NCBI GenBank assembly: GCA_031282245.1
Contig: JAITEB010000045.1
Coordinates: forward strand, 1 to 64,000
Direction of reading: 5' to 3'
Source: Oscillospiraceae bacterium
GTDB lineage: Bacteria > Bacillota > Clostridia > Oscillospirales > Ruminococcaceae
DNA length: 64,000 bases
Shown: in pieces, positions 14,335 through 23,617 of the stretch
Numbering within the stretch: the stretch's first letter is position 1
Layout of the letters: every line of letters starts with the position of its first letter
Program-made: the position numbers and the translations under genes
Notes under the pieces: model-generated
The model's input: only the letters and a program-made list of their open reading frames with translations
The model's database searches: none
What the model was told of the DNA's origin: nothing

Positions 14335-14700
14335 TTACCTGAATCTCACAACTGCGCCATCATAAATTTGGGTATTCACATCTATAACCACTGGCGATTC
14401 AAGTTTGCCATAAAAGACTAAATTGTCGTTTTCGTCAAAATACGCAGTGATATATTTTTTCTTGACAGAGTATTCGTTTCCCCAAGCCCCGCGTGTTTTT
14501 TCCACAATCCATATATATGTTAGTTTACCATCATTGTACAGTGCGGTTTTAGGCAATAAAACCGAATCCGCCCCCTTCGGCGTACCCATACTGATATTAA
14601 CTATAGGCAAGTGGTCGCGATAGTGACTTATGCAAACAGCTGTCATTATGCCCATAAACAAAAAAAACAAACAAAATATAATAATTATTGTTTTTTTTAT
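14335..14700 (-). CDS. Small membrane protein with HlyD/adaptor C-terminal-like domain
   Basis: The last gene of the peptide operon. One N-terminal transmembrane helix is followed by about 80 residues resembling only the C-terminal domain of efflux adaptor proteins (L-L-P-K-T-A-L-Y-N-D-G-K-L-T-Y-I-W-I-V-E, then a beta-rich end G-A-V-V-R-F). The lipoyl and hairpin parts of a full adaptor are missing. The only ATG/GTG/TTG with a long frame is a TTG at 14670 with no ribosome-binding site. GGAGG at 14712-14708 instead points to ATA 14700, giving the typical start M-K-K-T-I-I-I-I. It probably cooperates with the operon's exporter or permeases. Confidence 0.6.
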   Translation of the reverse strand: MKKTIIIIFCLFFLFMGIMTAVCISHYRDHLPIVNISMGTPKGADSVLLPKTALYNDGKLTYIWIVEKTRGAWGNEYSVKKKYITAYFDENDNLVFYGKLESPVVIDVNTQIYDGAVVRFR

Positions 14701-15449
14701 GATTTATCCCTCCTCAATGTTAAGGCTATTCCACCGGCTAAAAAATCATGTCCTAAAGCGAACACTAAAACGGCAGGAATAATATATATAACGCTTATTG
14801 AAAAGACAAGTGAGGAATTGTCGGCGATTAGACGCGAAAGGTATACGGATAAAGGTTCTTCATAGTTGTTTTTGATAAAGACGACTGCCTGGTCAACAAT
14901 GTTCCAGCAATCTGCAAATGTCAAAACGGAAAGCGCCGCCAAAGTTGAGCTTATGTTTGGCACAACTATGCGCCAAAACACAGTAAACTCTCCCGCGCCG
15001 TCAACACGCGCGGCATCCAGCTGCGAACGATTAATTCCTCTTAATTGCTGGCGTATTAAAAACGTCCCAAAAGGAGCAAAAATTCCCGGCAGGATAATAG
15101 CCCACCAAGTCCCGTTATAGCCAAGAAGTTCAGCCGTAATATAGTGAGGAACCATTAGCAATTGCAATGGCATTAACATTATGATTATATACAAAAAATA
15201 CAAAGCCTCTTTACCGCGAAAACGTGCCGTTTCAAACGCGAAAGCCGCCATCGGCGAGACAATCAGCTGTCCCAGTAGTATCGGAACAGTAAGCAGAACG
15301 GAGTTCCAAAACAATCGAAAGTACAACGGGTCACTCAGCAGCGCATTGCGATATCCGCCGAAAGATCTCACAATGACAAAGACCAGCGGCACGATTACAG
15401 TCGCCGCGCACAATATCAAAAAGCATATGCGAAAAATATCTTTTTTCAA
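14697..15449 (-). CDS. ABC sugar-type permease, MalG-like
   Basis: An inner-membrane permease of the carbohydrate uptake (CUT1) type, about 250 residues with six predicted helices. The EAA loop reads D-A-A-R-V-D-G-A-G-E-F-T-V-F. The frame could start upstream at 15500, but AAAGG at 15462-15458 with suitable spacing favours TTG 15449, which leaves a 4-base gap after the preceding permease. It pairs with that permease and the solute-binding protein of the same operon. No import ATPase is encoded in the cluster. Confidence 0.85.
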   Translation of the reverse strand: MKKDIFRICFLILCAATVIVPLVFVIVRSFGGYRNALLSDPLYFRLFWNSVLLTVPILLGQLIVSPMAAFAFETARFRGKEALYFLYIIIMLMPLQLLMVPHYITAELLGYNGTWWAIILPGIFAPFGTFLIRQQLRGINRSQLDAARVDGAGEFTVFWRIVVPNISSTLAALSVLTFADCWNIVDQAVVFIKNNYEEPLSVYLSRLIADNSSLVFSISVIYIIPAVLVFALGHDFLAGGIALTLRRDKS

Positions 15450-15453
15450 GAGC

Positions 15454-16251
15454 TTACAACCTTTCGCCAAATTTTTTCTGTCCCCAAAACATCGCGGCAA
15501 TCACTACAGTAACAAGCACGGAAATTACAGACGATGCCGCACTGAGTTTTTGCAGGTTTGCCGCAAAAAACTGATTGTTCATATAGTGTTGCAGCATATA
15601 TATCGACTTGTGAGGATAATTTCCAAACAAAAGAAATATTTCCCGAAAAATTTTGAAAGAGTTGACAAATGACATCAAAAACGCCACAAACAATGTCGGT
15701 GATAAAAACGGTATAGTGACCATATGGAATATACGCCAACCCCCCGCGCCCTCAATAGAAGCAACTTCATAGAAAGTGCGCGGGATAAACTCCAATCCCG
15801 CCACTAGTAAAACAGTATTAAACCCGACGTTTTTAAACATAAATACGACAATTATCGCGAATAACGCGAGATCGCTTTGCAAAACGCTGCCAGGTATAAC
15901 ATTTTGCCAAAAGGCAACTGTAGCGCCACTTGGAATAACCAACGGCAGCATAAATAACAGTAAGCAAATCTTGTTTACAATGCGAGTATGATAAAGCAAG
16001 TTTGCCAAAAAAAATGATACTATTACGTTCAAAGGTACGCAAATAAGCATAAAAACGGAAGTGTTGCCCAGCGCCATTTTAAACGCCTGACTTCCCAGTA
16101 CGTCCCGGAAATTTGCAAGTCCTGCGAATTTTCCGTCAATGTCAGTGAAGGAGTAATAATACGACATAATATACGGCAAAATATAAAGCCCTAAGATGCC
16201 AAGCAAACTTGGTAACAGAAATGGCAGCGAACGGCGGGACGAAGATTTCAT
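15454..16251 (-). CDS. ABC sugar-type permease, MalF-like
   Basis: A 265-residue CUT1-type permease with six hydrophobic helices. The coupling helix region reads E-V-A-S-I-E-G-A-G-G-W-R-I-F. GAGAGAG precedes the ATG. It lies between the subtilase-like gene and the second permease within the Cys-rich peptide operon, which suggests that uptake of some solute or peptide is tied to the peptide system. It lacks the large N-terminal extension seen in the second importer of this window (54477-55790). Confidence 0.87.
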   Translation of the reverse strand: MKSSSRRSLPFLLPSLLGILGLYILPYIMSYYYSFTDIDGKFAGLANFRDVLGSQAFKMALGNTSVFMLICVPLNVIVSFFLANLLYHTRIVNKICLLLFMLPLVIPSGATVAFWQNVIPGSVLQSDLALFAIIVVFMFKNVGFNTVLLVAGLEFIPRTFYEVASIEGAGGWRIFHMVTIPFLSPTLFVAFLMSFVNSFKIFREIFLLFGNYPHKSIYMLQHYMNNQFFAANLQKLSAASSVISVLVTVVIAAMFWGQKKFGERL

Positions 16252-16274
16252 GTTTACACTCTCTCAAATAAATT

Positions 16275-17384
16275 TCAGGTGAACATTTCGATTAACTTGT
16301 TTTTCACAGCATTAACTGCCGAATATTCATCGATGTGTTTGGATATATCTATAACTGGCAAGTCCAGTGGCCTCGCAGCGCCGTTAAGCGACACAATTAC
16401 ATCCGCACATTTTTCAGAATAAGAGTTATTCAGCAAAAGAAATACTAAATCAGTATTCGCTGAACAATAGATTATCGCGCGTTTTGTTTGTTTTTCAACC
16501 GTATCGTTTGCAAACAATTTTTCATATGGGAAAGTCAATTCACTAACGGAAAACGGTATGTCGTCCCCGACGATACAAGAACAATATTCTTCTTTTTCAA
16601 AAAGTTGTTTCAGGCGTTTAGCAAATAATAATTTATCCGCGTTATCGCCGGTAATTCCAACAATAATTGGATTACTGTCTATACTTGCAGGCTGTAAAAT
16701 ACTTTTGTAATTGTCCAAACCCCATAAAATAGGCTTGGATTGTTTAGTCAATTCATGACAGACATACTCAAAAGAATTTTTAATACTAAAAGACATGATT
16801 TCACAAACAATTGCGCCGATATATTGAGTGGTTACACTGTTTGACATAAACCTGGCGTTTTTCACGGTTCTATTACCGCTTAATGAGTCAGGTACAGAGC
16901 TATTAATATTTATTCCGTCAAAAGGATCATGTTCAAATAAGAATTCTCCATTTGACAGTTGATTGCTTCTGCCATTTCTCACGCCCAGAACGCCTGGAAG
17001 CGATGCCGGGTAAGTTATTATGTTTTTGTTGCTGCACGCGCAGACCATAATTATATCATTATCCAGCATATTTTTTACAGCCGGCTTAACAGCCCTTGCG
17101 GCCAAACTGTCAGTTGTTCCCGCGCTCATAATAACTAAATCCGGACGCGTATTCGCCGCTTTATTAAAGACATTTATCAAGGCGGATATATCTGCCGGCT
17201 GTTGCCCGCTTGATTGAAAAGAATATAAAAAAACTTCTTTGTTCTCCTGGGCATATTTTTGAAATACCATATTGCACATTTTTCCATGAGGAATCGAAGA
17301 TACAAATAAACCCGTTTCAAAATTCTTTTCAATAGTTGCCGAGTCAAAAATATCATCTATAATTGCAACTTTGATTTTTCTCAT
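16275..17384 (-). CDS. Subtilase (S8)-like protease with extra C-terminal domain
   Basis: A 369-residue cytoplasmic-looking protein (no signal peptide). The first 200 residues hold a compact subtilase core with every catalytic residue in place: Asp10 (V-A-I-I-D), His33 (P-H-G-K), oxyanion Asn119 (C-S-N-K) and Ser183 (M-S-N-S-V-T-T). The subtilase landmark Y-P-A-S-L-P-G-V-L-G-V is at 125-135. The motifs around His and Ser are degenerate. Residues from about 235 form a second domain (I-I-V-G-I-T-G-D-N) that resembles part of the TIGR04066-type protein. It overlaps the acyl-carrier-related gene by 4 bases. I infer it is the leader peptidase, since the exporter has no peptidase domain. Confidence 0.8.
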   Translation of the reverse strand: MRKIKVAIIDDIFDSATIEKNFETGLFVSSIPHGKMCNMVFQKYAQENKEVFLYSFQSSGQQPADISALINVFNKAANTRPDLVIMSAGTTDSLAARAVKPAVKNMLDNDIIMVCACSNKNIITYPASLPGVLGVRNGRSNQLSNGEFLFEHDPFDGININSSVPDSLSGNRTVKNARFMSNSVTTQYIGAIVCEIMSFSIKNSFEYVCHELTKQSKPILWGLDNYKSILQPASIDSNPIIVGITGDNADKLLFAKRLKQLFEKEEYCSCIVGDDIPFSVSELTFPYEKLFANDTVEKQTKRAIIYCSANTDLVFLLLNNSYSEKCADVIVSLNGAARPLDLPVIDISKHIDEYSAVNAVKNKLIEMFT

Positions 17385-17641
17385 GCGAGTTCTATTATAT
17401 CATAAATTGATTCGACTATAACTTGAAGAGAAAACCCGCGCCGCTTATTTTCAATCGTATCAATAAGTTGTTGGATATTTAACTGGAAATCACGTTCTAT
17501 ACGAATCAGGGCATATGCCGCATCTGCCGACGTGAAGTTAAGGCGCTTTCCAAAAAGACTTTCTGTCTCATTTGAGGCGTCAAACTTTTTTATGCTCTCA
17601 AAAATTGTCTTCACTTTGTTTCGTACATCATCTTTGTTCAT
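17381..17641 (-). CDS. Acyl-carrier-related peptide maturation protein
   Basis: An 86-residue four-helix, acyl-carrier-protein-like chain. The region equal to the D-S-L-x-x-V-E-L motif reads F-T-S38-A-D-A-A-Y-A-L-I-R-I-E-R-D-F. The serine that would carry phosphopantetheine is kept, but the preceding Asp is Thr and the following Leu is Ala, so modification is doubtful. GAGG about 11 bases upstream favours ATG 17641 over an upstream GTG at 17662. Recalled family: the acyl carrier-related protein of clostridial Cys-rich peptide loci (TIGR04069). Its likely role is to bind or shuttle the precursor or a partner enzyme. Confidence 0.8.
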   Translation of the reverse strand: MNKDDVRNKVKTIFESIKKFDASNETESLFGKRLNFTSADAAYALIRIERDFQLNIQQLIDTIENKRRGFSLQVIVESIYDIIELA

Positions 17642-17665
17642 AATATACCCATCCTCAAACACACT

Positions 17666-18709
17666 CTACGAAGCCGCAAGCAGATTATATATTTCGTCAA
17701 AAACATAAAGAGTGCTGATATTGTCAAATACGCTAAATACCCGTCTATCTAAATTATTTCGTTGAGTATGAACGGTCAAAAAACCAATTTCCTCAATATT
17801 CGCAGGATCGTACAGCAGTCTTTTATTTGCCTCGTGTATAAACTCAACGCGGCAGTTTAGTTTATTACTTGCTTTTGCCATAATTTCTTTCAAATCGCTT
17901 TGACGTCCATAACTTTTATATATGCTTAAAATACAAACGTCCGCATCCAAAGCGGCGGAAATACATAGTGCAATTTCTCCAAATCCATTTGGTCTTTTTT
18001 TTGTCATATAACTATAGCCGCCTGGTATTCCAACAATTATCAGATCGGGATTTTGTTCTTTTTCCCGCTTGCTCACATATTGATTAAACATAAGCGCTTT
18101 ATCAGAAAATGATAACCGTTCATATAAAAAGCCGGGCAACTGAGAAAAGCCGAATAGTTCAGAATATGCTCGGCTTCCAAATTGCAATATATTATAACCT
18201 TTATTTTGAAAATATGCCCGCAGCGCTAATTGAATATCAAATTTATTGCAATTCTCGCCGATCCCGGCGACGAAAATAATTGGAGTATTTATCACGCAAA
18301 GACTATTATTAATATAATTAGAATAACCCGCTTGCTTTTGTCCTATAACTTTTATATTTAGATATTTATCTTCAGGAATTCCCAAATATTCTTCTAAATT
18401 TTGTGTAATAATAATTGTTTTATTTTGCGACAAACTTTCGTTTATCCTGTCAAAATAAACGCCCGGTGTAATTTTTTCAGAAATAAAATCCATAAATACA
18501 GTATCGCATTGGTTAAGCGCCTTATTAAAATCATCTGAAATTATCACTCCGGTAATATTTCCATTATCGCAGAATCCTGCGTCCTGCCCGCACAGCCCCC
18601 AAGCTTTAGGCGAAATGGCGCCGCGAACCGAATAAGCCGAAAGATTCGCATACCGAACAATCGCTGCGTGTTCAGCAGCGAACGGAAAAATCATTAACGC
18701 GCTATTCAT
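17666..18709 (-). CDS. Peptide maturation system protein, TIGR04066 type
   Basis: A 347-residue soluble protein matching, from memory, the TIGR04066 'peptide maturation system' family, which occurs only beside the radical SAM maturase. It has an N-terminal half starting N-S-A-L-M-I-F-P-F and a C-terminal Rossmann-like half with I-I-F-V-A-G-I-G-E-N-C-N-K and later L-I-I-V-G-I-P-G-G. The mechanism is unknown. A frame extends to 18751, but AAGGAGG-like bases 8 positions before ATG 18709 fix the start there; it overlaps the maturase stop by 8 bases (ATGAATAG), indicating coupled translation. Confidence 0.85.
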   Translation of the reverse strand: MNSALMIFPFAAEHAAIVRYANLSAYSVRGAISPKAWGLCGQDAGFCDNGNITGVIISDDFNKALNQCDTVFMDFISEKITPGVYFDRINESLSQNKTIIITQNLEEYLGIPEDKYLNIKVIGQKQAGYSNYINNSLCVINTPIIFVAGIGENCNKFDIQLALRAYFQNKGYNILQFGSRAYSELFGFSQLPGFLYERLSFSDKALMFNQYVSKREKEQNPDLIIVGIPGGYSYMTKKRPNGFGEIALCISAALDADVCILSIYKSYGRQSDLKEIMAKASNKLNCRVEFIHEANKRLLYDPANIEEIGFLTVHTQRNNLDRRVFSVFDNISTLYVFDEIYNLLAAS

Positions 18710-20114
18710 AGGCAAGCCCTCCTTGATTTTCAAAATCATATCCCTGTTCAAGAAGAAAACAATATATTTTAAACTTTTCTAAAATATCCGCAAGGACTCC
18801 GGAACAGCGCGAAAGACGTAGTCTGCGCGAAAGCTTTTGTGTGCCGTCTGCCGCGGCCGCACACTGTGTGCAATGTATCAGTCCCCAGCAGTTTGAGCAG
18901 ACATCGGCGGAAATTGCGCCTACGTTTAACAGCGTTTTTGCTTTGTCTATATCTATCCCTTTTTCTATTGTTCCTATTTTCATAATACCGGAATTCTCGC
19001 TGACGCGCTCACACGGGTATATATTGCCATTTACATCGACAAACGGGCGTCGCGCCCCCGGTAAACAAGGCCCTCCAGGGTGACAAACTTCGCTTAAAGC
19101 TCCCGCAGACTTCAGAAGGTCGTGGGTTCTTTTCACGGCTGCTTTTTCTATAATAAATAATTTAGAAACACGATCTTCGTCAAGTTTACCCGCAAGCCAT
19201 AACAGCGCTTTTAGATGCTCATATCTTTCTGTGATTACAAATGATTCGTTATAATTCACATAATTTTTAGCATTATATGTATTAACTATACTATATTTCG
19301 GAGAATAACAGCTTACAACATCGTCTGTATTATAAAAGCTATTTACACACTTAAAATCAACATCTTGGCTTATTACTGTATTAATTGTAATCTTATGATA
19401 ATATTCGGGATAATTATTTTTTATATACAATAAGTTCCGCATAACTTTATCATACGTACCTTGACCGTTTATGAATTTCCGATGACGGTCATGCACGTCT
19501 TTATTACCATCCATACTAAGCATTATATTAAAGTTTGCCGCAACCAAAAAATCCATTATATCCGCTGTTAATAAAGTGCCATTTGTAGTTATAGTTAAAT
19601 TTATATCTTTTTCAGAATAATTGTTTTGAATATATTTAACGCAGTCCTTAATTAACTGAATCTCTAAAAGAGGTTCGCCTCCATAAAACCCTAATGCCAC
19701 TTTATCATTCTCACATGAATGAGATATAAGATAATCAATGCACTTTTGCGCCATTTCAAAGCTCATCCGTCTATTAGAATGACTACGATTTTCATATCCT
19801 CCTGAATAAGGACAATAATCACAACGCAAATTGCAATTTTGTGTGATCTGTAATGTAATTTGCTCCGTTTTTCTTTGGATGTGTTCACACAAGTCACGGG
19901 TTTCCGGATGCTGTATCGTTTTTATAACAGACGGTAACAGGTATCCTGCATTTTGAAATCGTTGAATAACTTGATTAATATTCTCATCAGTTTGCTTGTT
20001 TTCAAACTTTTGCAAAGAAACAAAATCTTGTTTATCGACTGTAAGTATTGAATTTGTATTTCTGTCATAGACATAATACCCATCCAGAGTACAAAACGTC
20101 TTAAATATGGGCAT
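18702..20114 (-). CDS. ccpM: Radical SAM/SPASM Cys-rich peptide maturase (CcpM-like)
   Basis: A 470-residue radical SAM enzyme. The N-terminal 85 residues form a small domain of the type that binds RiPP leaders. Cys94-x3-Cys98-x2-Cys101 (C-N-L-R-C-D-Y-C) binds the SAM cluster, and G-F-Y-G-G-E-P follows. The C-terminal SPASM region carries many cysteines (E-V-C-H-P-G-G-P-C, Y-P-C-E-R, V-C-S-N-C, H-C-T-Q-C) for auxiliary iron-sulfur clusters. Such enzymes usually form thioether bonds from cysteine to a carbon of another residue. The substrate is inferred to be the CxC precursor encoded two genes upstream. Confidence 0.92.
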   Translation of the reverse strand: MPIFKTFCTLDGYYVYDRNTNSILTVDKQDFVSLQKFENKQTDENINQVIQRFQNAGYLLPSVIKTIQHPETRDLCEHIQRKTEQITLQITQNCNLRCDYCPYSGGYENRSHSNRRMSFEMAQKCIDYLISHSCENDKVALGFYGGEPLLEIQLIKDCVKYIQNNYSEKDINLTITTNGTLLTADIMDFLVAANFNIMLSMDGNKDVHDRHRKFINGQGTYDKVMRNLLYIKNNYPEYYHKITINTVISQDVDFKCVNSFYNTDDVVSCYSPKYSIVNTYNAKNYVNYNESFVITERYEHLKALLWLAGKLDEDRVSKLFIIEKAAVKRTHDLLKSAGALSEVCHPGGPCLPGARRPFVDVNGNIYPCERVSENSGIMKIGTIEKGIDIDKAKTLLNVGAISADVCSNCWGLIHCTQCAAAADGTQKLSRRLRLSRCSGVLADILEKFKIYCFLLEQGYDFENQGGLAYE

Positions 20115-20215
20115 CTTTCACAGCTCCAAATGTTAAATTTTTCAGTTGCGCGAATTACTTTAAGAATAAGCAGTTGCAAATCTCATATGTTTCAAAATAA
20201 TTTTGCCGCAAAACA

Positions 20216-21637
20216 CTATTCGTTGATGTAAACCGACACCTTTGAGTTAATGCTGTCGAGCGTCTCCTTCGTCGAGTACTCGTCTGTTAAATACAAATAT
20301 AAATCAGGCCAAATAATCTTATTCAGTTGAGAATACCGGGAAACCGGGTAATTCAATTCGTCTGGCAATGAAATCAAGAAATCGACCGTTTCTGCAATAA
20401 CCGTATCTTTATCTTTTGTTGTTTTCATGCCGAATTGTTGCTGACCCGTTATATACGCAGCGTCCGCCGCGAGCCGGGCATGCGTTTCATAGTTATTCCG
20501 ATTTACGGAACCAGCGCCAACGGTATACGCGTATGCATCAGGATAAGCGGATATATCGGCATACGGATCCTTTTTATCTTCTATGCAAAATTTTATAAAC
20601 TCCCAAGCTAAATCTTTATCAGGGCAGGTTTTATTTATGCAAAAAATATTGCCTGGACTAAACAATTTATTTCCGTTAAGAGTTTTAAGCATCTGAGGCT
20701 GCGTATATATTCTGCCTTCATAGGGAAACAGCAAAGACGGAGAATAAGCAGCGCTGTCGCAGGAAAGAAACAGATAGCCGTAATCCATGTCAGATGTTTG
20801 CTTATATGCGTCCTCTGTTGACCCAAAGCTGGAAATCAGCATACTTTCAGGCATATATTCAACATTAGGCGCGGGGGGAATCGCTTTTGCCATATCCAGC
20901 AAGTCAATCATTTCGGGATCCGACAGCCGCGACGTTTTGCCGTTAAAATCAATAAATTTATCGTATGCGTAATAAAACAAACTGGCAGGAGAATACGATT
21001 CGTATACTGACAAAAAAGCTTTTCCATATTGTTCATATGCTCTCAACACGTCTGCATATGAAAATTCTCCGCTTTCAAACTGCGTCTTCAGTTCTTCAGG
21101 CACATCGCTTCTCATGCTGATTAACCCGAAAGGATGAAATTGCGAAGTCAAACCATACAATTTTCCATCGGACTCAAAACACGAAAGCATATGCATATAA
21201 TAATTCTCATCGTTTATATCCGCGCTTTGTTTTATATATTCGTTCAGGTCGACAAAGTACCCGCTTTGCAAGAGACTGTCTATGCTATAATTCAGGTCAA
21301 GCACAATAATATCCGCGGCTTGTCCCGACATTAACTGCGTGGCCAGCTTTTCGATCGTTTCGCCATAATTTCCATCATCGTATTCAACAGTTATATCAAC
21401 ATCTTTATTGAGAGCCATAAACTCAACAACAGCGTTGTGTATGTAATTGCTTGGTGAGCCGTAACCCGACGACTTAATGCTCAGGACGCGTTTTGTGTCC
21501 GGCGCTGATTCAACTGCTTGCGATGATGGGGCTACACTTAAATTTTCATACAGCTTGTCGTCCGCCGATTGTCCGCAACCCGCAAAAAGCAAAATTGCGG
21601 ACAACGCGACGAACACACGTTTGATACCAATAGACAT
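20216..21637 (-). CDS. ABC solute-binding lipoprotein in the peptide operon
   Basis: A 473-residue extracellular solute-binding protein of the sugar-binding (CUT1) class. The signal peptide ends in a clear lipobox, L-F-A-G-C21. The fold is suggested by S-G-Q-A-A-D-I-I-V-L-D-L and the C-terminal D-L-A-W-E-F-I-K-F-C. GAGGGA precedes the ATG. It sits between the precursor and the maturase and belongs with the two permeases at 14697-16251. The ligand is unknown: it could be an oligosaccharide, a peptide, or the mature product itself as an immunity or sensing function. Confidence 0.85.
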   Translation of the reverse strand: MSIGIKRVFVALSAILLFAGCGQSADDKLYENLSVAPSSQAVESAPDTKRVLSIKSSGYGSPSNYIHNAVVEFMALNKDVDITVEYDDGNYGETIEKLATQLMSGQAADIIVLDLNYSIDSLLQSGYFVDLNEYIKQSADINDENYYMHMLSCFESDGKLYGLTSQFHPFGLISMRSDVPEELKTQFESGEFSYADVLRAYEQYGKAFLSVYESYSPASLFYYAYDKFIDFNGKTSRLSDPEMIDLLDMAKAIPPAPNVEYMPESMLISSFGSTEDAYKQTSDMDYGYLFLSCDSAAYSPSLLFPYEGRIYTQPQMLKTLNGNKLFSPGNIFCINKTCPDKDLAWEFIKFCIEDKKDPYADISAYPDAYAYTVGAGSVNRNNYETHARLAADAAYITGQQQFGMKTTKDKDTVIAETVDFLISLPDELNYPVSRYSQLNKIIWPDLYLYLTDEYSTKETLDSINSKVSVYINE

Positions 21638-21669
21638 TCTATTCCCTCACTACTTGGACATCCATATTT

Positions 21670-21876
21670 TTAGTTGCTTGACGAATCGCCGCTCATTATT
21701 CCGGTGTCAACGTGAATGTAGCTGTAAAACGCTTCATTTTGATAGCTGCTTGTGTTATTTCCCGCACTAGCTAAGCTGTCATAGCATGCACAAACACAAA
21801 CGCAATAACAAGAACAGCCATAAACTTGCACCTGTTGAGAGTCAGCCCGTTTGACCAGCTTTTTGACGTTTTTCAT
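21670..21876 (-). CDS. Cys-rich RiPP precursor peptide with six alternating cysteines
   Basis: A 68-residue precursor. A lysine-rich leader of about 18 residues (M-K-N-V-K-K-L-V-K-R) precedes the core, which starts around Y-G-C. Cysteines stand at 21, 23, 25, 27, 29 and 31, each separated by one residue (S, Y, V, V, A). The rest (33-68) is rich in Ser, Asn, Asp, Tyr and Gly and has no Cys. AAAGGGGG lies 8 bases before the ATG. It resembles the CLI_3235/Clo7bot class of putative clostridial bacteriocin precursors, and every expected maturation gene adjoins it. The product structure, cleavage site and target are unknown. Confidence 0.88.
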   Translation of the reverse strand: MKNVKKLVKRADSQQVQVYGCSCYCVCVCACYDSLASAGNNTSSYQNEAFYSYIHVDTGIMSGDSSSN

Positions 21877-21955
21877 TGTTTTGTCCCCCTTTCTGATAAA
21901 ATTTGAGTTTCGATTAGTTCTTTACTGCTTTGCCCAAGTAGTCGCTGATATGCTT

Positions 21956-23617
21956 TTAGTTGACAATTTCGCCGTTATCCAGTCTAATCACCTTGTCCAT
22001 ATATTTTAATATATCCTCGCGATGCGTAATCACAATAATATAATCATATTTCATCATTTCGCAAATATATGCATTACATACTTTTTCCGATTCCAAATCG
22101 AAACTTGACGTCGCTTCATCCAAAATCAAAATTTTTGCATTTTTTAATACCGCACGCAGCACAGATAATTTTTGAGCTTCGCCGCCGGATAATTTTGCTC
22201 CGTTTTTTCCAACAACGGTATTTAGTCCTTCCGGATGAGTTTCTAAAACATCTGTTAACGCTAAAGAATTAAACGTATCAAATAATCCTTCTTCTGTGTG
22301 ACGCCCCATAGGGTCAATATTATCCCGAATAGTCGTATTGAACAATTTTGCGTCTTGCCGAACAACAGCGAACATTTCTCTGTATGCGTCTATATCATAA
22401 TCAATAATATCTACTCCGTCAAACTGAATCTTACCGGCAGCAGGCTCATAAAAACGAAGCAAGAGATTAATCAGTGTCGATTTACCGCAACCGTTGTCGC
22501 CGACCAAGGCAATCTTTTGCCTTTTTTTTATCATAAAGCTTATATTATTTATTACTCTATTTCCTCCATAAGAAAAAGAAACGTTATTAAACGAAATAAC
22601 GTCAGGAACACGAACGAGTTTTTCCTTTGGGTCGTCGCAACCCTCTTCAGGCATCTGCATAAACTCTATATATCTTTTCATACTCGGGAACACATCAACA
22701 AAATGGTACTTAATTTTTGTTAAGAATGATACAGGACTGATCACTTGCGCTGTATAGGCAATAAACGCCATAAGCCCGCCAGCTGTGAGTTCTCCAGAGA
22801 TTATCTCTGTCAACCCAACTAAATACAAAACACAATTCAGAAAAAAATCTATCAAAGATTCCAAAGTATCACTATATTTGTCTGTATATTCCAATGTCAA
22901 AGAAGTTTTAACGCTGTCATTTTGTATGGATAAAAGATCACTGATTTTTTGCTTATGCAACCCCCAGAGCTTAACTATATCAATAGAATTCAAAGTATCG
23001 CCAAACCAGGAGCCGAATTTATTTAAATTACTTAACGTTTTCTTATACGTCGCCTCACGTTTGGCTGTGTAATGCCGTACAATCAGCAATTTGGCAGGAA
23101 TAGATAATATAACAAAAATTAACAATTTTGCATCAAGTACACATAATCCAATAATTCCGCCTATAATAGAAAATATTTGGACAATCGACACCAGCATATA
23201 CCTATCTGTCAAATAACACAGTTTAGATATATCAAATCTAATATTATTCATAATTTGAGCTTCGTTATGTGTTTTAAAATAATCTAATTTTAGTTTTAAT
23301 AAGTGTTCTGTGGATTTTTTTGTCAAATCAGTTTCCATCTGTTTATTGATTTTTGTTAATTGAGCAAACTCAATGAAATCAAAAAGTTTTGTTGCGATAA
23401 AAAGAATTGCCAAAATAGATAAATAAAATACAAGAACGGCAAAATCTTTTGCAATAACGCCCTTGTCAATAATAGCTTTATTTACAAGCGGGAAAAATAT
23501 ATTCAATACTGAGACCACAGTAACACAAAAAGCAACGGCTATCAAATTTTTTTTATATGGGGAAAGCAAAACACGTGTATTAGAAATAAAACTTCTATCA
23601 TTATGCAATTCCGTCAT
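21956..23617 (-). CDS. ABC exporter (fused permease-ATPase) for the peptide
   Basis: The first gene of the operon: a 553-residue half-transporter with six N-terminal helices followed by an ATPase domain. Walker A is G-D-N-G-C-G-K-S-T (about 373-381), the signature is L-S-G-G-E-A-Q-K, and Walker B is I-L-I-L-D-E-A-T. It works as a homodimer. Unlike many bacteriocin exporters it has no N-terminal C39 cysteine peptidase, so the leader must be cut by another enzyme, probably the subtilase of the same operon. Confidence 0.92.
   Translation of the reverse strand: MTELHNDRSFISNTRVLLSPYKKNLIAVAFCVTVVSVLNIFFPLVNKAIIDKGVIAKDFAVLVFYLSILAILFIATKLFDFIEFAQLTKINKQMETDLTKKSTEHLLKLKLDYFKTHNEAQIMNNIRFDISKLCYLTDRYMLVSIVQIFSIIGGIIGLCVLDAKLLIFVILSIPAKLLIVRHYTAKREATYKKTLSNLNKFGSWFGDTLNSIDIVKLWGLHKQKISDLLSIQNDSVKTSLTLEYTDKYSDTLESLIDFFLNCVLYLVGLTEIISGELTAGGLMAFIAYTAQVISPVSFLTKIKYHFVDVFPSMKRYIEFMQMPEEGCDDPKEKLVRVPDVISFNNVSFSYGGNRVINNISFMIKKRQKIALVGDNGCGKSTLINLLLRFYEPAAGKIQFDGVDIIDYDIDAYREMFAVVRQDAKLFNTTIRDNIDPMGRHTEEGLFDTFNSLALTDVLETHPEGLNTVVGKNGAKLSGGEAQKLSVLRAVLKNAKILILDEATSSFDLESEKVCNAYICEMMKYDYIIVITHREDILKYMDKVIRLDNGEIVN

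Follow-up and report, generated by a model that had tools for sequence, protein, structure and literature searches.

Among clusters for ribosomally synthesized and post-translationally modified peptides (RiPPs), the CLI_3235/CcpM type recurs across Clostridia and is covered in NCBIfam by the models TIGR04065, TIGR04066, TIGR04068 and TIGR04069. A single expression-tested representative was found in the open literature, and a structure of its product was not found: the eight-gene SacP23 cluster of Paenibacillus polymyxa #23, expression of which in Bacillus subtilis gave antibacterial activity (PMC10731318). SacP23 includes genes for a CLI_3235-family precursor, an ABC exporter, CcpM (TIGR04068), TIGR04066 and TIGR04069 proteins and a subtilase, together with sigma-factor and 'unc-89' genes (PMC10731318). 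The operon described here occupies positions 14,335 to 23,617 of contig JAITEB010000045.1 of an Oscillospiraceae bacterium, a gut-type Firmicute (assembly GCA_031282245.1), of which a stretch of 64,000 nucleotides, called the window below, was analysed. Its core is that of a known, barely studied, bacteriocin-type RiPP cluster of the CLI_3235/CcpM type. Unlike SacP23, the operon also encodes a solute-binding protein (SBP), two permeases and an adaptor. We consider it slightly short of an even call that this one operon makes, matures and exports a cysteine-rich peptide of the CLI_3235/CcpM kind and brings its own module for capture or uptake at the cell surface.

Two proteins of the operon, the radical S-adenosylmethionine (SAM)/SPASM maturase and the TIGR04066 protein, exceeded their curated NCBIfam cut-offs (TIGR04068, 500 bits; TIGR04066, 200 bits; scores in Table 1). 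A preliminary description of the locus had assigned both to peptide-maturation families and had named this comparison beforehand as one of two points on which it would stand or fall; the assignment held. Its type label, Clo7bot/CLI_3235, applies only in its second half, as CLI_3235/CcpM. Clo7bot is likewise a clostridial Cys-rich peptide system with a radical SAM maturase, but that maturase has a separate model (TIGR04334; cut-off, 600), which was absent from the best 25 of the 75 NCBIfam matches of the window maturase, those 25 reaching down to 59.3 bits. In the alignment, the window maturase carries CxxxCxxC at residues 94, 98 and 101 and seven further invariant cysteines with SPASM spacing. 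Its N-terminal region is of the leader-binding type, and over its first 240 residues the enzyme matches the peptide maturase 5wgg, the nearest solved structure.

The precursor, of 68 amino acids (aa), consists of a Lys-rich leader, the core GCSCYCVCVCAC and a polar tail. A precursor profile made from other loci only ranked it first of 676 open reading frames (ORFs) (E = 1e-10; the next reached 8.8 bits), and against TIGR04065 it scored 19.2 bits (E = 0.001; cut-off, 26). The half-size exporter has a membrane domain and an ATPase domain, and no C39 leader peptidase domain was found among its Pfam matches. Compared with the NCBIfam system as a whole, the precursor and the carrier-like protein are in place but below cut-off, the latter being very divergent, and the importer module is an addition.

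The second such point, conserved co-occurrence of the genes elsewhere, held as well: the same gene set was present in 54 true-CcpM loci from other contigs, collected by a scan of genome contigs. Around CcpM in these loci, TIGR04066 and carrier genes nearly always lie downstream, the exporter family occurs at 42 loci and the subtilase at 32. The occurrence of this gene set as one operon is far beyond chance. For the core we count the profile matches, the blind recovery of the precursor, the 54-locus co-occurrence and the activity of SacP23, as well as the intact catalytic triad of the subtilase and its fusion and in-window homology with the TIGR04066 protein, described below; gene content, conservation, catalytic residues, folds and recurrence are all direct observations. 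In several Lachnospiraceae loci (L062, L063, L064, L069, L072, L073, L083 and L098), genes for AgrB, histidine kinase-like and LytTR response-regulator proteins lie upstream of the CcpM clusters (one AgrB and one regulator were confirmed with Pfam), and their placement suggests agr-type control of peptide production there.

The sequence of the TIGR04066 protein gave nothing significant against solved structures and matched no Pfam family, DUF1611 included; its identity came from fold comparison. An AlphaFold2 model (predicted local distance difference test [pLDDT], 89.9) matched the DUF1611 structure 2g0t over the whole length of its two-domain fold (Z = 24.0 over 309 residues; rmsd, 3.8), with Z = 22.1 against 2obn and Z = 18.1 against the N-acetyltransferase DgcN (7xrj). 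By this model, the protein has the DUF1611/DgcN fold. It differs from those proteins in a degraded P-loop (G163..K170-F171), in which Phe replaces the Ser/Thr that follows Lys170. The P-loop lysine is kept in 36 of 46 relatives, and the Ser/Thr position is mostly Phe or Leu. An immunity role was proposed by its authors for the TIGR04066 protein of SacP23 (PMC10731318). The modelled DUF1611-like fold gives no support to that role and would replace the guess of an ATPase subunit for immunity.

The triad Asp10/His33/Ser183 of the subtilase and its oxyanion residue Asn119 do not vary across 26 cluster subtilases, the window's included, although the score against the Pfam S8 model was 18.1 bits (cut-off, 21.8). 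No signal peptide was seen. The closest NCBIfam match, a weak one (E = 1e-8), was the leader protease QhpE. In the quinohemoprotein amine dehydrogenase system, the radical SAM enzyme QhpD introduces cross-links and QhpE, a cytoplasmic subtilisin-like protease, removes the leader. The window likewise pairs a radical SAM enzyme with a subtilisin-like protease (the names QhpD and QhpE are those of the NCBIfam models), but its target is a small peptide and its protease has an added half: the C-terminal part and the TIGR04066 protein of the same operon are homologues (profile-profile comparison, 97.6%; E = 3.4e-12). Because the exporter has no leader peptidase domain, the subtilase is the strongest candidate for cutting off the leader.

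Where related clusters of the order use another radical SAM enzyme, subtilase and TIGR04066 protein form a single protein of ~610 aa, next to a carrier whose phosphopantetheine site is genuine; the fused relative matches Pfam DUF1611 (38.1 bits; cut-off, 25). The carrier-like protein of the window, which falls far below the TIGR04069 cut-off of 70 bits, is in the right place and can be aligned. The earlier label 'acyl-carrier-related' was correct as to type and misses the loss of the attachment serine. An alignment of 28 carrier-like relatives in CcpM clusters contains no conserved phosphopantetheine serine (DSL motif), so these proteins probably carry nothing any more. Five non-CcpM loci in the window's order (L246-L250) encode a radical SAM enzyme near TIGR04463/TIGR04334, the ~610-aa subtilase-DUF1611/TIGR04066 fusion and two ABC half-transporters, some of them with a carrier bearing a phosphopantetheine site; a protein of ~330 aa that matches no family was also seen.

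The import module of the window comprises a lipoprotein of 473 aa, MalF- and MalG-type permeases and the adaptor. A model of the lipoprotein, of modest confidence (pLDDT, 72.6), was nearest to CbpC (Z = 25.8 over 383 residues), and with respect to the ligand the fold matches were merely general oligosaccharide-binding proteins. The binding-protein alignment has no invariant aromatic residue, and no close paralogue of the lipoprotein was found elsewhere in the window's genome. The permeases share 36-44% (MalF type) and 36-51% (MalG type) identity with those of other such loci. In permease family, in the fold of the binding protein and in the set of one binding protein and two permeases, the module resembles CUT1 (MalF/MalG-type) importers; it differs from them in that no MalK/UgpC-type ATPase gene lies within the operon. 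A UgpC-type ATPase is encoded elsewhere in the genome (479 bits; cut-off, 432). The 'adaptor-like stub' of the preliminary description was right in kind, as it aligns with membrane-fusion proteins. Aligned to versions of 226-228 aa, it retains one membrane helix and a C-terminal barrel and has no lipoyl/barrel-sandwich part, whereas its longer relatives (~340-650 aa) carry HlyD domains including that part. Judged from this alignment, the stub is what remains of a membrane-fusion protein after reduction.

Importer parts had been placed in the usual clostridial Cys-rich peptide set, but they proved to be a minority accessory module. Binding-protein genes on the same strand within 6 kb were found at 7 of the 54 CcpM loci, one of these (L053) being doubtful on weak, distant matches (SBP, 44.5 bits; permeases, ~100 bits), compared with none of 103 other radical SAM loci, a control drawn largely from viral contigs, in which such genes are scarce in any case. 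A locus with binding-protein and permease genes near CcpM and weak profile matches (L060) was left out of the count. Further clusters with binding proteins occur in the window's order. One genome has two, each with the order precursor-SBP-SBP (L241 and L242). Another cluster (L239/L254), in which all components of the window's operon recur, has three precursors and six binding proteins, in the order precursor-SBP-SBP-precursor-SBP-precursor-SBP-SBP-SBP-exporter-subtilase-permease-permease-adaptor-MacB-like. A gut isolate (L058/L240) combines two precursor/SBP/CcpM units with permeases, an adaptor and its own MalK. The window's genome itself has a second, contig-truncated cluster (L251, G000:C20:20000-29281) with TIGR04066, carrier, 226-aa adaptor, permease and subtilase genes; the maturase, exporter and binding protein of that cluster are not in the assembly. 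Some RiPP clusters encode binding proteins with no permeases within reach, and the RiPP-like form of the module also occurs with no CcpM nearby (L297-L300). Mapped onto the tree of CcpM, the presence of a binding protein requires nine changes, at least seven of them forced, so it was gained or lost repeatedly; the same test gave no significant clustering of this label. Two CcpM-cluster binding proteins are composite: one joins two tandem binding domains (860 aa; L089:13017-15599) and the other a probable beta-propeller and a binding domain (735 aa; L061:7178-9385).

The MalG family is present in 103 of 394 genomes of the order at E = 1e-42. Four RiPP-free loci that were examined in full (L301, L302, L304 and L305) encode permeases, a HlyD-type membrane-fusion protein of ~630-660 aa, a MacB-core protein and a binding protein of ~780-860 aa, a free-standing module that has apparently not been described before. 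Some of them adjoin genes that by eye resemble the VTC, DUF4956 and CotH families. The window shares with this module the permease family and the position of a membrane-fusion protein beside the permeases, but its adaptor (~120 aa) and binding protein are smaller and the operon has no MacB-like protein. Throughout the RiPP clusters, the fusion protein measures 226-240 or ~120-140 aa and has no barrel-sandwich part. Because a permease tree, a quick one with long branches, groups the window with L240 and L251 and places L243 and L254 apart, the module would have been recruited into RiPP clusters at least twice; a single origin there was rejected on the same split.

From these parts, a working scheme can be proposed. 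The N-terminal region of CcpM would grip the leader and radical links would be made in the CxCxCxC core, with the TIGR04066 and carrier-like proteins as partners in a maturation complex. The subtilase may dock through its own TIGR04066-like half and remove the leader in the cytoplasm, and the ABC exporter, having no leader peptidase, would then send the peptide out. At the cell surface, the lipoprotein would bind the exported peptide, and the MalF/MalG pair with the fusion remnant, powered by the UgpC-type ATPase encoded elsewhere, could remove or retrieve it for self-protection or re-uptake. We infer the chemistry, the removal of the leader by this subtilase and, above all, the peptide as the ligand of the binding protein. 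For the module we count its distribution over CcpM and control loci, the further clusters in the order, the repeated gain or loss, the alternation of precursor and SBP genes, the second cluster of the window's genome, the MalK of the related gut cluster and the UgpC-type ATPase. The more specific proposal, that lipoprotein, permeases and reduced fusion protein form a dedicated receptor and re-uptake system for the modified peptide, one that arose on several occasions out of a free-standing module of the oligosaccharide type and whose binding proteins diversify along with the precursors, is tentative and on balance doubtful.

Several points weigh against the exported peptide as the imported solute. 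Importers of the MalF/MalG kind move sugars, the modelled fold of the binding protein is an ordinary oligosaccharide-binding one that taken alone favours sugar, and many genomes of the order carry the permease/adaptor module on its own with no RiPP genes, tandem binding proteins occurring there too. Furthermore, the import module is absent from most CcpM clusters, among them SacP23, and the locus count is weakened by the viral bias of its control and by L053. The fold and the free-standing relatives, like the ATPase gene outside the operon, would suit an ordinary oligosaccharide importer merely co-transcribed with the peptide core, for instance where peptide production follows a nutrient. We hold this to be possible, if rather unlikely, as it fits poorly with the repeated association with CcpM loci and with an adaptor that is reduced and a binding protein that is smaller than in the free-standing form. 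Because binding-protein genes stand beside the precursor genes and alternate with them, are multiplied with them (L239), occur in several clusters with no permeases within reach and show no invariant aromatic residue, it seems more likely that the exported peptide is captured or taken back up than that a sugar importer is carried as a passenger, though not by much.

The dense cysteines of the core, the binding protein beside the precursor and the export and import parts within one operon could also point to a secreted carrier, such as a thiol-rich metal binder, that the module returns loaded in a siderophore-like manner. This is improbable, as the permeases are MalF/MalG-like, thioether links may consume the cysteines and neither a metal-regulated repressor nor a metal-release enzyme or metal-type binding protein was seen in the operon. 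A peptide signal with the binding protein as its receptor would be in line with the AgrB and response-regulator genes near several Lachnospiraceae CcpM clusters; however, those genes go with clusters that have no import module, and no regulator is present in the window's operon, which leaves little room for a signalling role. Supply of a sugar for attachment to the peptide would give a sugar-type importer a reason to lie inside a RiPP operon, but neither the window's operon nor the set of recurrent neighbours includes a glycosyltransferase, and we regard this as very improbable indeed.

The locus represents an import-bearing subtype of a RiPP type that is already known. This subtype, the DUF1611 identity of TIGR04066 and its repeat in the protease are new as far as found: the search of the literature, which covered mostly openly accessible journal papers, returned none of them and nothing relevant on solute-binding proteins in RiPP clusters. 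With a capture module of its own, such a subtype would open function to testing, and the binding protein would be a ready affinity reagent for the product. The DUF1611-like TIGR04066 protein recurs as half of the protease, and in relatives the two are joined in one chain; this offers a structural handle on the maturation complex.

All ten ORFs described previously as a one-directional set are present at their given places and in the stated order on the minus strand, running from 23617 to 14335 with gaps of 23-101 bp and several overlaps between neighbours. The block stands as given; the starts of the TIGR04066 protein, the carrier-like protein, the MalG-type permease and the adaptor were corrected, for the first three to likely internal starts (approximate positions in Table 1).

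Table 1. Genes of the operon in order of transcription, with window positions and the evidence for each assignment.
Feature	Position	Strand	Evidence
ABC exporter, half-size	21956..23617	-	PF00664 and PF00005 over cut-off
Cys-rich RiPP precursor, 68 aa	21670..21876	-	Leave-window-out precursor profile, 37.1 bits
Solute-binding lipoprotein, lipobox Cys21, CUT1 type fold	20216..21637	-	PF13416, 52 bits; model vs CbpC
Radical SAM/SPASM maturase CcpM	18702..20114	-	TIGR04068, 560.6 bits
TIGR04066 protein, predicted DUF1611/DgcN fold	17666..18709 (ORF open to 18751)	-	TIGR04066, 282.1 bits; model
Carrier-like small protein, TIGR04069 type	17381..17641 (ORF open to 17662)	-	TIGR04069, 23.3 bits; alignment
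Subtilase, C-terminal part TIGR04066-like	16275..17384	-	Triad alignment; profile-profile comparison
MalF-type permease	15454..16251	-	PF00528, 41.7 bits
MalG-type permease	14697..15449 (ORF open to 15500)	-	PF00528, 56.8 bits
Putative membrane-fusion protein remnant	14335..14700	-	Alignment with 226-228-aa versions; likely ATA start

The G+C content of the block is 31-42%, compared with mostly 45-54% in both flanks, and the block begins ~290 bp away from a tRNA-Val gene, on that gene's 3' side. The maturase exceeded the TIGR04068 cut-off in none of 60 relatives examined and in 14 of 391 genomes of the class, the window's own included; a TIGR04066 protein over its own cut-off was present in 6 of 394 genomes in the order-level search. 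Because of its low G+C content and its position 3' of the tRNA-Val gene, this sporadic block was probably acquired. An empty insertion site could not be demonstrated through flanking synteny, as relatives keep neither the tRNA-Val gene nor the far flank beside EF-P, and no convincing att-like repeats of the tRNA end were found around the block. A phage origin was rejected, viral contigs containing merely distant radical SAM relatives.

The adaptor gene likely starts at an ATA codon (14698-14700), directly behind AGGAGG and overlapping the stop of the permease gene. The TTG at 14670, taken as the start previously, drops the N-terminal KKT of the membrane helix. Relatives have ATG at this place, and the ATA would be an unusual start codon or else a sign of gene decay.

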